A program made the position numbers and the translations under genes. Shown in pieces: positions 11,420-17,460 of a stretch of 34,357 bases of DNA (its first letter is position 1; each line of letters opens with the position of its first letter). The DNA comes from Desulforamulus aquiferis (lineage in GTDB: Bacteria; Bacillota; Desulfotomaculia; Desulfotomaculales; Desulfotomaculaceae), in contig AWVY01000021.1 of assembly GCA_004143605.1 (NCBI GenBank), forward strand, positions 41,682 through 76,038, in the 5' to 3' direction. The notes under the pieces were generated by a model. It was not told the DNA's origin. It was given only the letters and a program-made list of their open reading frames with translations, and did not search any database.

Positions 11420-12470
11420 TTAGCGGCGGCGTAGGAAGGCAGGGATATCTAGGTCATCGTGGCTGGCAAAGGGCTTGATCTCCATTTCCTTTTTGCCCTT
11501 TTCCTTTTTGTTATTAAGACGGTGCTCAAAGCCTGTGGCAATTACGGTAACCCGTACTTCTTCGTTCATTCTTTCATCTATCACGGCACCAAAGATAATG
11601 TTAGCTTCAGGATCCGCAGCCTGGGCAATAATTTCAGCTGCTTCGTTAACTTCAAATAACCCTAGGGAAGAACCCCCTGTGATATTAAGGAGCACGCCCC
11701 TAGCTCCCTCAATGGATGTTTCCAACAGCGGGCTGGATATAGCTGCCCGGGCAGCTTCTGTAGCCCTGTTTTCACCCGTTGAACTACCAATACCCATTAG
11801 CAGAGCCTGTATCCTTCATGATAGTTTTAACATCGGCAAAGTCCAAGTTAATCAGTCCAGGAACGGCAATCAAATCTGAAATACCTTGTACACCCTGACG
11901 CAGGACGTCATCGGCAATACGGAAGGCCTCAACAATGGAGGTATGCTTATCAATTACCTGCAGCAAGCGATCATTGGGGATGGTAATTAAGGTGTCTACT
12001 TTGCTTTTGAGGTTCTCAATGCCGGATTCAGCCTGGGAAAGCCTTTTTCTCCCCTCAAAGGTAAAGGGCTTTGTAACAACCCCTACAGTAAGTGCTCCTA
12101 TTTCTTTGGCAACTTCCGCCACCACCGGTGCAGCACCGGTACCAGTGCCACCACCCATGCCGGCGGTAACAAAGACCATATCTGCACCCTTTAGGGCCTG
12201 CAGTATTTCATCCCGGCTCTCTTCGGCTGCTTTACAGCCAATTTCCGGGTTGGCCCCTGCACCCAGACCTTTAGTCAGCTTAGTGCCAATTTGGATTTTA
12301 TGGTTACTTTGGGACAAAAACAGAGACTGGGCATCTGTATTAACCGCAACGAACTCTACTCCTTTGAGTCCAGCACTGATCATACGGTTTACGGCATTAT
12401 TGCCACCACCTCCGACCCCGATTACTTTAATGTTAGCAAAATGGTCCAGGTCCAGCTCGAAGTCAAGCAT
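11420..12470 (-). CDS. ftsZ: Cell division protein FtsZ
   Basis: Tubulin-like GTPase that forms the Z-ring at midcell and at the polar sporulation septum. After repair it is 350 aa. GTP-binding parts: [15 protein letters not shown], the tubulin signature [16 protein letters not shown], and the T7 loop [11 protein letters not shown]. The C-terminal peptide [11 protein letters not shown] is the usual FtsA/SepF docking tail. Start ATG 12470 follows GAGGAGG. A two-base loss at plus-strand 11798-11801 breaks the frame after DTGSA; repair gives [16 protein letters not shown], the family consensus. Because a broken ftsZ would be expected to be lethal, this is strong evidence that the breaks in this sequence are errors. 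It is the last gene of the dcw operon. Confidence 0.96.
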
Positions 12471-12515: not shown

Positions 12516-13493
12516 TTACCTAAACCGGGCCAAGACTCCACGCCATCCAGAATGGTCCTCCAAGCGACTGGAACTTCTTTTAGCACCATATATAACCAGT
12601 CCCACCGATGAGGTATAGCCAGGTCCATCAAGGCCTTCTTGGGAAGGTTTTGACCCTCCTGAAGGACCTATAGTAATTCGGGAAAAGGGGAATTGCGAAT
12701 GGGCTAGACTTAAAAAGTCCTTCAGTAATGTCCCTCCCCCTGTAAATACCAGACCGCCGGATAATGCTTCAAACCGACAATTTTTCTTTAAATCGTGGTA
12801 ACATAACTCAAGTATTTCTTTAACCCGAGATTTTATGATATCTACTGCTACGGTTCCTGAGATACTTCTTATGCCATTACCTGTAAGATTGGATATCTCT
12901 AATATGACCTCCGGTTCTGGATAGGATATTCCTAAAGTTCGTTTAACTCTTTCTGCTTCCCCTAGGGTTGTCCTAAGACAAACCGCTAGATCACTGGTGA
13001 TATGCTCACTGCCAATGGGTATTGTATGACTATAAATCAGCTCACCCTGATCATACACAGCTAAACCAGTCGTTGTTCCTCCCAGGTCAATTAATACTGA
13101 ACCTAGCTTTCTATCTGTTTCGGTTAAAAGCTTTTCTGCTGAAGCAATTGCGGAATGAACGGTTTCTATGATGGTTAAGCCAGCATTAACAACACATTGG
13201 GCTAAGCTTTCATCAATAATTTCAAACTCTCCAGTTAGTGAATCAGAGGTTGGGAAGGTAATATATACTTCCTTAACCAATTCTTTAGTCATGTCCTGGG
13301 CCAGCTCAACGGCATGGGCAATAGATTTGCCTAAAGCAAAACTATCATATACCTTACCCCGCCGGACACCAATGGCCGGACTCTCTCCAAAACCTGTAAT
13401 TATCGGATATCCATTGGGACCAACCTCGGCAATGACTGCAACAATTTTTGTAGTGCCAATGTCTAATCCCGCGACAGTACGTCTCCTGGACAA
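12516..13493 (-). CDS. ftsA: FtsA-like actin-family division protein lacking subdomain 1C
   Basis: FtsA tethers FtsZ filaments to the membrane. Intact, 325 aa from TTG 13493 (MSRRRTVAGLDIGTTK), which has GGAGGTG eight bases upstream; typical FtsA is 410-440 aa. Actin-fold phosphate loops are present: GLDIGTTK, VLIDLGGTTTGLAV, VFTGGGTLLKD. The C-terminus SGWRGVLARFR could be the amphipathic membrane helix. The missing part is internal: KEVYITFPTSDSLTGEF (about residues 75-90) runs straight into the segment that precedes NAGLTI and SAIASAEKLL, so about 80 residues, the whole of subdomain 1C, are absent. The frame is continuous, so this is not explained by the one- or two-base errors elsewhere. 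It sits 45 bp before ftsZ. Confidence 0.85.
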   Translation of the reverse strand: MSRRRTVAGLDIGTTKIVAVIAEVGPNGYPIITGFGESPAIGVRRGKVYDSFALGKSIAHAVELAQDMTKELVKEVYITFPTSDSLTGEFEIIDESLAQCVVNAGLTIIETVHSAIASAEKLLTETDRKLGSVLIDLGGTTTGLAVYDQGELIYSHTIPIGSEHITSDLAVCLRTTLGEAERVKRTLGISYPEPEVILEISNLTGNGIRSISGTVAVDIIKSRVKEILELCYHDLKKNCRFEALSGGLVFTGGGTLLKDFLSLAHSQFPFSRITIGPSGGSKPSQEGLDGPGYTSSVGLVIYGAKRSSSRLEDHSGWRGVLARFR

Positions 13494-13580
13494 GCCCAGC
13501 ACCTCCAGTGCAGCTTTTACTTAAAATGTAAAATTCAACAAAGAATAAAAATTCCCTTTTCAAAGAAGACCAAAAAATAG

Positions 13581-13922
13581 TTATTTTTTTAATATATGCC
13601 TGCGAATGATGGCTAAATTTTGGAACAAGCGCACACCAAAGGCAACCACTGCGGCTGTACTTAGGGGTACTCCTAGCTTTGTTCCCAGATATGCCAATCC
13701 CGCGGCTAATAGGGCATTACTAAAAAAACCTGTAACAAATATGCGGTTATCATAATGGTCTTCCATAGCCGCCCTGATTCCTCCGAAAACTGAATCTAGA
13801 GCTGCCAGCACGGCCAGTCCCAGATATTGTGCATAGGTTTGGGGTAAAACTATCGGAACATTTAGGCCAATCATTACGCCCAGGAATAATCCAACCAGGG
13901 CAATTATAACACCTATCCACAC
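13581..13922 (-). CDS. sbp: Small basic protein Sbp (DUF1290)
   Basis: Integral membrane protein, intact, 113 aa. Three or four hydrophobic segments: GVIIALVGLFLGVMIGLNV, LGLAVLAALDSVFGG, FFSNALLAAGLAYLG and AAVVAFGVRLFQNLAII. LDSVFGGIRA and FNALLA-type FFSNALLA blocks are typical of DUF1290. Start GTG 13922 has GGAGG ten bases upstream. The gene is a regular member of the divIB-DUF881-sbp-ftsA stretch in Firmicutes; its function is unknown, presumably at the division site. Confidence 0.88.
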   Translation of the reverse strand: MWIGVIIALVGLFLGVMIGLNVPIVLPQTYAQYLGLAVLAALDSVFGGIRAAMEDHYDNRIFVTGFFSNALLAAGLAYLGTKLGVPLSTAAVVAFGVRLFQNLAIIRRHILKK

Positions 13923-13924
13923 GG

Positions 13925-14649
13925 TTACCTGGCCTCCTTCAGTGGTTTAGCATATTCAAGATTTATATTATGGTAAAATGCCGGTACTACAATTTCGTCT
14001 TGCCTTTCCACACTAACGGTAATGCCCCAATCTTGCATAGTATCCACCAGGCCACCTTTGATTAAGAGACCACTTTCCAACTGGCCTGGGGAACCGATAG
14101 CCAAAACCTTATAGGGAGGCGATATTCTGGTAAGGTTTACATCAATGAAAGACCCTGCCAGCCTAATCTCGGTGGTAGATATAATCCTCTGACCGTTAAT
14201 TGACATAGCTTCTGCCCCTGATGCCCTTAGTTCATTAATAACCCTAAGGAGGTCCTCGTCTCTAACCGTAAAGAGGTTATCCCCTGGTTTATCCCCCTTA
14301 TTCATAGGAGCTATGCTTACTTCCACCCCCGGGCCTGTAACCTGGTTAGACCAGCCATTTGCCTAACCTTGATCAATTCCTCTTGAACTGCCTGGGATGC
14401 CTCGGGACGCCCTTTATCTGCTTTTGCCAGCTTATCTTCTAAATCAATGGCCTCACTAAACAGAGTACTATATTCCCTTTCTATCTGCCTAAGTTCCGTT
14501 GTCAGAAGCTGCACCCTGTCATAGGGCACGCCTGAATCCACCCGGCCAGCCGTCCTAAACTGAAAAGCCACCATCAGCCCCAGGGCCATTGAAACAAGCA
14601 ATATGGAAAAAAATAATGGTATATTAGTTTTTAAGCTTGGTTTATTCAT
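13925..14649 (-). CDS. DUF881 family membrane-anchored protein (copy nearest ftsA)
   Basis: After repair, 241 aa. One N-terminal membrane segment (IPLFFSILLVSMALGLMVAF) is followed by a coiled-coil region (LLTTELRQIEREYSTLFSEA, DLEDKLAKA) and the DUF881 core: GPGVEVSIAP, RDEDLLRVINELRASGAEA, SINGQRI, GSPGQLESGLLIKGGLV, YAKPLKEA at the end. One break at plus-strand 14334-14335 (CCC to CC). It ends two bases before sbp begins. DUF881 proteins (YlxW/YlxX type) occur between divIB and ftsA in many Firmicutes; their role is unknown, but an extracytoplasmic division function is likely from context. Confidence 0.85.
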
Positions 14650-14660
14650 CTTCAACCGCC

Positions 14661-15363
14661 TTAATTATCAGCCACAGGTTTGGCATAATCAAAGGAAATA
14701 GCTCCTGAAAACCCTGGAACATCAAGGTTTGTTTGTTTTCGAACTTGTACTTGAATACCCCATATTTTAAGCTGTTCAACAACCCCACCCTTCATAAAGA
14801 GTGAATTTTCTAAGGTCTGAGGGTTGCCGATAGCCTTGATGGTGAATGGGGCCGGCAGTCTTTTGTTTTTATTGGTAAGAATTGTTGGCCCAATGCAACG
14901 TATTTCACTGGTAGCTATCAGCCTGACATCATTTAGGCTATGGCCTCTGCCCCTGCGGCCTTAAGCTCGTTAAGTACCCTAAGCACATCTTCATCGTGTA
15001 AAACATATAGGTTTGGATCTTGTCCCGGCTGAAGTACCACATTGCTATCATTTAATGTTACTTCCACACCTGGCCCGGAAACAGCCTGAATTCCCGCAAT
15101 GATTCTACTGGTTTCCATTTCGGCAGCAAAGTTATCGGGCTGAACATTGGCCTTTTGATCCAACCTTTCCCTTAGCTCCACTACTCTTTTCTCCAGTTGG
15201 TTCCGGGCTTCCCTTTTTTCCTTTATTTCGTTGTTTAAGGTTTGTACCCGAGCAATGGGAGGGCTTTCATTAACCTCTCGGGAAAACCTGTATTGAATAG
15301 ATATCATTAGCCCAGTGCCAAGGCGACAAGAGCTATACCCAATTGATAACCCTTTATTTTCAC
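14661..15363 (-). CDS. DUF881 family membrane-anchored protein (copy nearest divIB)
   Basis: Tandem paralogue of the neighbouring DUF881 gene. After repair, 234 aa. N-terminal membrane segment (GYQLGIALVALALGLMISI), coiled coil (VQTLNNEIKEKREARNQLEK), then SGPGVEVTLND, HDEDVLRVLNELKAAGAEA, SLNDVRLIATSEIRCIGP, IGNPQTLENSLFMKGGVV, FDYAKPVADN. Start GTG 15363 overlaps the divIB stop by one base (TAGTG) with GGAGGGTG upstream, so translation is coupled. Breaks: plus-strand 15311-15313 (C4 to C3), which alone hides the true N-terminus, and 14939 (TT to T). The two copies share the core layout but differ throughout. Confidence 0.85.
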
Positions 15364-16108
15364 TATTGGACACCCTCCGGTTTAGAATATTTAACCACCG
15401 GCACCTTAGGATTAGACAAATCTATATATTCAATCTCTCCGCCAGCTTGCTTTAGGTTTGTGATTACCTGTTCAAAAACTAGTCCTTTATACTCAATTTC
15501 CTTGGGCAGGCCAAGCCTTCCCTGGGTGCCATCCACCGTGTACAGAAAAATTTGTCCAGTTTCATTTACATGCATCTCAGAGAGTTGTTGGATCAAGGTT
15601 CTTGGTAGTTGACTCAATGAGTGAAGCATCATGGGCAAATCCTTAGACTCGACAGTTTTGCCTGGACCACTCTCCTTAACGGTCAGTCCTGTAATCACCG
15701 GTAAGGCCGAGGCAATTGTGCCCTTTTGCAAGTATACCCCATCATTATCAACTTTAATAAAGCTGTTTTCCAGGGGGAGCAGAGCTACCGCCCTTCGCTC
15801 GGTAACGTTAATAATAATTTTATCCGGTAGTTTTCTTTCTAAGCTAACGACCTTAAGGAGCGGGAGCATGCTCAGCCGCTCTTCACACTGGCTCAAATTA
15901 AGTTTAAATATATTAGTTCCAGGAATAATTCCAGAGAATTCCTTTATTTCGTCCTTTTTCATCTGCTGATTGCCAACAATTTCTATTTTTTCAATCTCAA
16001 ACAACGGAGACTGTAACAAGATATATACGGCAGCACTTACCAGCAAAATAAAAAACACTTTGTACCAAGTGGTGTTTTTTCCGGGGCTTCAGCACGAGGT
16101 CGATACAA
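15363..16108 (-). CDS. divIB: Cell division protein DivIB/FtsQ
   Basis: Bitopic divisome protein that forms a complex with FtsL and DivIC/FtsB. After repair, 248 aa. A short cytoplasmic head (MYRPRAEAPEKNTTW) precedes one membrane segment (VFFILLVSAAVYILL); the POTRA domain starts SPLFEIEKIEIVGNQQM and has IPGTNIFKLNL and LPDKIIINVTER; the beta domain ends GEIEYIDLSNPKVPVVKY. Start TTG 16108 has GGGTGGGAG upstream. One break at the plus-strand T6 at 16075-16080 (should be T7); without repair the N-terminal 19 residues are lost. It lies 100 bp after murA and overlaps the next gene by one base. Confidence 0.9.
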
Positions 16109-16208
16109 ATCTCCCACCCCTTGAAATAATTTCCGATGTTGCCCATTTTTACAATATTATAACTGATAAGTGATAGCCTTGTCCAAGGCAAAACTAAAAA
16201 AAGAGCCA

Positions 16209-17460
16209 TTAACTATTGACTCTTATAATTCTTGCCCCCAGGGAATTATATCTTTTTTCTATTCGCTCATAACCCCTATCTATATGCTCGATATTACTCA
16301 GCACTGTTCCGTCCTCCCCGGCCAATGCTGCTAGAATTAGGGCAGCTCCTGCCCGCAAATCAGTTGCCTCCACACAGGCTCCTGATAGTCGACTGACCCC
16401 CTTAATGATGGCGGTATGGCCTCCAGACGGATATCAGCCCCCATCCTGCGGAACTCAGGCACATGCTTAAATCTATTCTCGAAGATGGTCTCACTAATGA
16501 CGCTGGTACCTTCTGCAATGGTCATTAATGCCATCATTTGTGACTGCATGTCGGTTGGGAACCCCGGATAGGGCATTGTTTTAATGTCTACTGCCTTAAG
16601 GGTTCCATTACTTTGGACACGTACCCAATCATCTCCTACCTCCACAAGTACACCAGCCTCCCTCAGTTTATAAATTAAGGGATCAAGGTGCTCTGGGATG
16701 ACGTTGCTAACCGTCACATCCCCCCGGGTAACCGCTCCGGCGATCATATGAGTTCCTGCCTCAATACGGTCTGGGATTACTGTGTGGGTGACCGAACCTA
16801 ATTCTTTCACCCCTTCAATTCTAATAACGTCCGTTCCAGCACCAACAACCTTAGCTCCCATGGCATTGAGGAAGTTCTGGAAATCCACAATCTCAGGTTC
16901 CTTCGCCGCATTTCTTATAACTGTAGTACCGTTGGCCAATATGCCAGCCATTATCAAATTTTCCGTAGCTCCTACACTGGGAACGTCTAAGTGAATTACT
17001 GTGCCAACTAGTTGACTTGCTTCTGCGGTGATATAACCAAATTTTTCTGATATTTCAGCCCCCATAGAGACCAAACCTTTAAGATGTAGATTCATCGGCC
17101 TGGAGCCAATATTGCAGCCACCCGGGTGCGATATCTTAACATTTCCAAACCGGCCAAGTATTGGTCCAAGGACTAGATTTGAAGCCTCATTTTTCTCATT
17201 ATGTCTTCCGATATTTCCTGGGGCTGTACATTCGAGCAGTCAACCGTCATGGTGTGCCCTTCAAAGTTTACCTTTGCCCCAAGATATGCCAGCAGTTCCT
17301 GCATTACCATGATATCCTTGAGTCTTGGCACCTGATGTACAGTACAGACGCCCCCGGTCAGCAGCGTTGCCGCCAGGATAGGTAACGAAGCATTCTTTGA
17401 GCCATTGGCTTTGATTGTTCCCTTAAGGCGGTTACCTCCCACAATAACAAATTTCTCCAC
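16209..17460 (-). CDS. murA: UDP-N-acetylglucosamine 1-carboxyvinyltransferase MurA
   Basis: First committed step of peptidoglycan synthesis: transfers enolpyruvate from PEP to UDP-GlcNAc in the cytoplasm. After repair, 417 aa. Substrate loop [16 protein letters not shown] (Lys and Asn as in the family), the catalytic Cys loop [11 protein letters not shown] (the fosfomycin-target Cys), [30 protein letters not shown] and the C-terminal [16 protein letters not shown]. Start GTG 17460 follows GGAGGTGG. Breaks at plus-strand 17185-17186 (CCC to CC, giving a false stop just before the Cys loop) and 16420-16421 (CCC to CC). Unrepaired, the catalytic loop and the C-terminus are missing from the open frames. 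Confidence 0.94.

Follow-up and report, generated by a model that had tools for sequence, protein, structure and literature searches.

Subdomain 1C is held to set FtsA apart among the actins. In Escherichia coli and Vibrio, FtsA assembles into an antiparallel double filament whose lateral contacts are made by 1C, which also binds the FtsN tail (PMC7613929), and subdomain 2B is the known FtsZ-binding subdomain of the protein (PMC4281207). Bacillus subtilis, which has no FtsN, is able to divide without FtsA (PMC11790237, PMC8178401). In this organism, FtsA depletion is rescued by overexpression of SepF (PMC8178401), and SepF together with FtsZ suffices for Z-ring formation in a multiple-deletion strain carrying suppressors (PMC11790237). 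Our searches of the open-access literature returned neither a description of a naturally 1C-less FtsA nor a paper treating Desulforamulus together with FtsA. Here, we describe the FtsA proteins of this genus, from which 1C is missing.

Identification of a Short ftsA Gene

The window, a 34,357-nt stretch of the Desulforamulus aquiferis genome, contains an ftsA gene without 1C at 12516..13493 on the minus strand, which encodes 325 aa from a TTG start. A Shine-Dalgarno-like GGAGG (13502..13506, minus strand) is located 8 nt ahead of this start, and an alternative GTG start at 13502 (minus strand) gives the longest frame, of 328 aa. The ftsZ gene (11420..12470, minus strand) lies directly downstream and is split in the assembly by one frameshift near 11800, while the gene directly upstream (13581..13922, minus strand) encodes a DUF1290-like small basic protein and adjoins ftsZ in those relatives that lost ftsA. 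The placement of a short ftsA just ahead of ftsZ, reported in an earlier note on this DNA, is thus confirmed, with an intact frame from either start.

The window protein matches the Pfam FtsA model (E 2.9e-27) and reaches 183.9 bits against the ftsA equivalog model TIGR01174 in two stretches, which is above the curated cut-off of 175.85, so an automatic annotation would label the gene plain FtsA. Orthology is indicated by the dcw position ahead of ftsZ and by the placement of the protein among the FtsAs of the order in the tree. However, the inserted 1C is missing from it, and SHS2_FTSA (PF02491), the Pfam model of 1C, has no match in the window FtsA; the variant is therefore FtsA-derived by descent and not a canonical FtsA by architecture. 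Membership in two other actin-fold families was rejected, the scores being 49.6 against a cut-off of 152.1 for EutJ (TIGR02529) and 35.9 against 365.75 for MreB (TIGR00904).

Loss of Subdomain 1C in the Genus Desulforamulus

Alignment of the genus FtsA profile with E. coli FtsA (7q6d) yields two blocks, residues 6–87 and 167–388, and the 7q6d residues between them, which constitute 1C, have no counterpart in the profile. At this site, the window FtsA carries a linker of 13 residues, TSDSLTGEFEIID (13212..13250, minus strand), which in the alignment replaces the about 84 residues of 1C. The corresponding interval measures 12–13 aa in all nine Desulforamulus genomes, 83–86 aa in families f3, f5, f9, f12, f14, f16, and f18, 80 aa in f13, 48–78 aa in f8, and 57 aa in genome G009; these counts leave out G101, for which a wrong sequence was picked. 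Thus, the gap falls exactly at subdomain 1C, as the earlier note had placed it.

The same short gene occurs in all nine Desulforamulus genomes as open frames of 328–334 aa that align contiguously from end to end (1–329). The eight other genomes, with frames of 328–333 aa, share the junction with the window FtsA, are 47–54% identical to it across the full alignment, and in several cases are single-contig assemblies. The genus was assigned through a record of D. aeronauticus DSM 10349, whose FtsA has the same sequence as that of one genus member. Among the matches listed for the 113 genomes of the order, which also represent every genome of the class in the collection, a contiguous FtsA match was found only in the nine genus genomes. 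Every FtsA match listed from outside the genus is interrupted where 1C lies, and the frames measure 366–488 aa, with the sole exception of one 192-aa fragment at a contig end. Likewise, in a sample of 398 evenly drawn genomes of the phylum, 202 of which have matches, no contiguous match outside the genus appears among the 150-odd strongest, which were listed. A search of the dcw clusters of relatives for a short FtsA had been put forward in the earlier note, and the same segment proved to be missing in nine out of nine genus genomes; close relatives with a full-length FtsA, named there as the result that would speak against a natural variant, are absent among the eight other genomes of the genus.

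The window assembly itself seems to be rich in indel errors. Of six dcw genes checked against G003, four carry frameshifts, ftsZ among them and ftsA not; the genes apparently split in this way are ftsZ, both DUF881 genes (13925–14655 and 14658–15373), and ftsQ (15372–16209), and murA is also in pieces in the list of open reading frames (16337–17460). Such an error-prone assembly, together with a genome completeness of 72%, might point to the missing 1C being an assembly or sequencing artefact of the window genome; however, the window ftsA reads through the junction without a frameshift, as previously noted, and the identical junction and short gene recur in eight other genomes, single-contig ones included. 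The probability of an artefact is thus negligible, and the larger assembly deletion that had been considered as a possible cause is excluded by the same recurrence of the short form.

Nor was 1C found elsewhere in these genomes: the PF02491 profile has no match in any of the nine, while it finds 1C in f3, and the f3 1C sequence used as a query against the genus genomes returned nothing below E 0.2. The profile is not fully sensitive, missing some of the eroded 1C regions of f8, so a highly diverged stand-alone 1C in the genus could escape the search. In addition, an FtsA-like paralogue of about 620 aa is encoded at L134 (2956–4830) and L135 (2875–4749), and similar frames are present across the order, FtsA-less families included. 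The additional FtsA-like matches in nine out of nine genus genomes and the long FtsA-like proteins across the order raise the question of whether a separate gene or this paralogue supplies the 1C function in trans. Both 1C searches argue against it, and the paralogue is present whether or not FtsA has 1C and hence does not track the 1C loss; we therefore consider retention in trans improbable.

Retained Motifs and Selective Constraint

The actin-type phosphate loops, all of which had been credited to the window protein, are only in part canonical. The phosphate-1 loop GLDIGTTKI (13443..13469, minus strand) is retained, whereas the phosphate-2 loop DLGGTTTG (13065..13088, minus strand) is atypical, as it departs from D[IL]GGGTTD by replacement of the third glycine and of the acidic residue. 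The adenosine motif TGGG (12732..12743, minus strand) is also retained. Phosphate-1 and TGGG are conserved across the genus, and a phosphate-2 that departs from the usual pattern is shared by many FtsAs in the order. Loss of the phosphate-2 acidic residue as a peculiarity of the 1C-less form was rejected, since this residue is absent from most FtsAs of the order and from Staphylococcus aureus FtsA too. Moreover, the FtsA of D. radiodurans shows ATP-dependent polymerization with no detectable ATPase activity (PMC4281207), and thus weak hydrolysis alone need not mean lost function.

In the subdomain 2B helix SRVKEILE (12807..12830, minus strand), the S, R, E, I, and E residues are invariant in the genus. 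The C-terminal membrane helix proposed earlier is present, with the difference that it is of the amphipathic type: the segment SGWRGVLARFR (12519..12551, minus strand) is a putative membrane-targeting helix, whose GWR and hydrophobic pattern are conserved in the genus, as expected at the sequence level for such a helix. Its hydrophobic moment is about 0.5–0.6 in eight of the nine genus FtsAs and 0.22 in G005. An AlphaFold2 model of the short FtsA, built from a three-row alignment, has a pLDDT of 47, too low for the fold to be interpreted.

As judged from substitution rates, the short ftsA is under purifying selection, with dN/dS values of 0.13–0.29 within the genus and 0.15 for the closest pair. 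The rate ratio of the FtsA core to FtsZ is 7.7 in the genus versus 4.6–6.2 elsewhere; this somewhat faster evolution of the core suggests that the constraint may be relaxing. Subdomain 1C is gone genus-wide and was not found elsewhere in the genomes, and the rest of the protein is kept under purifying selection in its original ftsZ neighborhood.

Origin of the Short Form

In the tree of FtsZ and the small basic protein, Desulforamulus is placed with strong support beside f3, the sister family, which has a full-length 1C (86 aa); the loss is therefore derived and genus-wide. The FtsA core tree, from which the 1C columns were left out, has the genus inside the order and does not reject a union with f3 (AU p 0.72), a result that argues for vertical descent. 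An origin from outside, either by gene transfer or by recruitment of a short actin-like protein such as EutJ, could be suspected because the best non-genus profile matches in the phylum sample are other clostridial FtsAs and not those of the order, and because EutJ likewise lacks 1C and gives a weak match. However, the position of the genus in the core tree and the unrejected f3 grouping, the synteny, which is that of the order, and the EutJ score, far under its cut-off, make such an origin very improbable.

Because the genus is found beside the full-1C family f3 in the FtsZ tree, the Desulforamulus loss looks like a direct one from a full-length ancestor, apart from the erosion in f8. Gradual 1C erosion within the genus's own lineage is unsupported, given that its neighbor in the FtsZ tree keeps the full 1C. 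In FtsAs of f8 and G009 (L089, L096, L108, and L081), 1C has shrunk to about 48–78 residues, apparently in a separate event. Despite its Desulforamulus family label, G009 groups with f8 in the tree of FtsZ and the small basic protein, and its ftsZ and ftsA (L081) both fall with f8; this draft genome may be mixed, or its family label may be uncertain.

FtsA Loss, SepF and the FtsZ Tail in the Order

Outright loss of FtsA is repeated in the order, with SepF retained. In 18 of 20 FtsA-less genomes that were inspected, the small basic protein gene stands directly ahead of ftsZ with no ftsA between them, and in the remaining two the upstream sequence is lacking. FtsA presence and absence require at least eight changes on the tree, and SepF was found in 110 out of 113 genomes. 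The ftsA gene is gone from this junction in many families (e.g., L139, L148, and L157).

All nine Desulforamulus genomes, as well as most of f3, have two SepF loci, one located between yggS and ylmH and the other near upp/uraA (L137, L138, and equivalents). A duplicated SepF as a specific compensation for the loss of 1C is unsupported, since the second copy is common to f3, which keeps 1C.

Within the genus, the canonical FtsZ tail IPAFLRR[RK] is kept in every genome whose ftsZ is intact, eight in all. Across the order, none of the 71 FtsA-bearing rows in which this tail could be read departs from it, and it is changed in 12 out of 20 FtsA-less rows. With phylogeny considered, the association between FtsA loss and FtsZ-tail drift comes down to four independent pairs and is not significant; the pattern, which fits constraint of the FtsZ tail by FtsA, is suggestive.

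Proposed Role of the Short FtsA

We consider it likely that the Desulforamulus protein is an FtsA orthologue from which the entire 1C was lost once, for the genus as a whole, and that what remains acts alongside SepF as a reduced tether between FtsZ and the membrane. As predicted from the conserved residues, the 1A-2A-2B core would still bind nucleotide, 2B would still hold the FtsZ tail, given its conserved residues and the canonical FtsZ tail kept in the genus, and the C-terminal amphipathic helix would still seat the short FtsA on the membrane. Polymers, if any, would be single protofilaments held by longitudinal 1A/2A/2B contacts, as the antiparallel double filament joined through 1C-1C contacts would be impossible and no 1A-1C cleft would be available for the tails of partner proteins. 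Recruitment of the late division proteins would then fall to SepF, encoded twice in each of the nine genomes, or to other proteins. A changed filament geometry and recruitment in Desulforamulus, anticipated in the earlier note, would follow by analogy with the published roles of 1C. A 1C-less tether beside SepF is plausible in the light of B. subtilis, which lacks FtsN, divides without FtsA, and, in a strain carrying suppressors, can have its Z-rings supported by SepF.

Alternatively, the short FtsA might be a decaying relic in a lineage where SepF took over as the FtsZ anchor and the unneeded 1C was lost first. The absence of ftsA from the ftsZ locus in many families, with its at least eight changes on the tree, the near-universal SepF of the order, the independent erosion of 1C in f8, and the higher FtsA/FtsZ rate in the genus are all consistent with decay. 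On the other hand, the gene is open in nine out of nine genomes, its dN/dS is far under 1, and the genus has kept the amphipathic tail as well as the ATP-site residues and the FtsZ tail, which points to constraint across the genus and not to drift; we thus regard a relic as rather unlikely. Going back to the reduced tether, it is quite possible, if somewhat short of probable, that the short protein represents a functional minimal FtsA of three subdomains, having neither 1B nor 1C, that it forms a narrower or single filament, and that SepF recruits the late proteins, 1C being dispensable in nature.

The 1C-less FtsA of Desulforamulus, set beside relatives whose FtsA is complete, partly eroded, or lost, forms a natural series, which could show whether FtsZ tethering separates from the job of 1C and whether SepF does that job.

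Comparison With Known FtsA and Actin-Like Proteins

The Desulforamulus FtsA shares with the canonical FtsAs of E. coli (7q6d), V. maritimus (7q6f), and T. maritima (1e4f) the position ahead of ftsZ, a similar 1A-2A-2B core, the phosphate-1 and adenosine motifs, and the C-terminal amphipathic helix, and it differs from them in having no 1C and an atypical phosphate-2. The canonical phosphate-2 acidic residue is also absent from S. aureus FtsA (3wqt, 3wt0; DIGEDVTQ in the aligned stretch), which, however, has 1C. In the Desulfotomaculales-type FtsAs of family f8 (e.g., G016 and G111), 1C is reduced and a remnant is still there; according to the FtsZ tree, this reduction arose apart from the Desulforamulus loss. 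EutJ (3h1q) is a short actin-fold ATPase without 1C that matches the Desulforamulus FtsA weakly in sequence; it differs in its gene context, with no FtsZ neighborhood, and the score against its model is far under the cut-off. MreB, an actin-fold, membrane-bound filament former, likewise has no 1C; however, it possesses subdomain 1B, and the Desulforamulus FtsA is far below the MreB cut-off.
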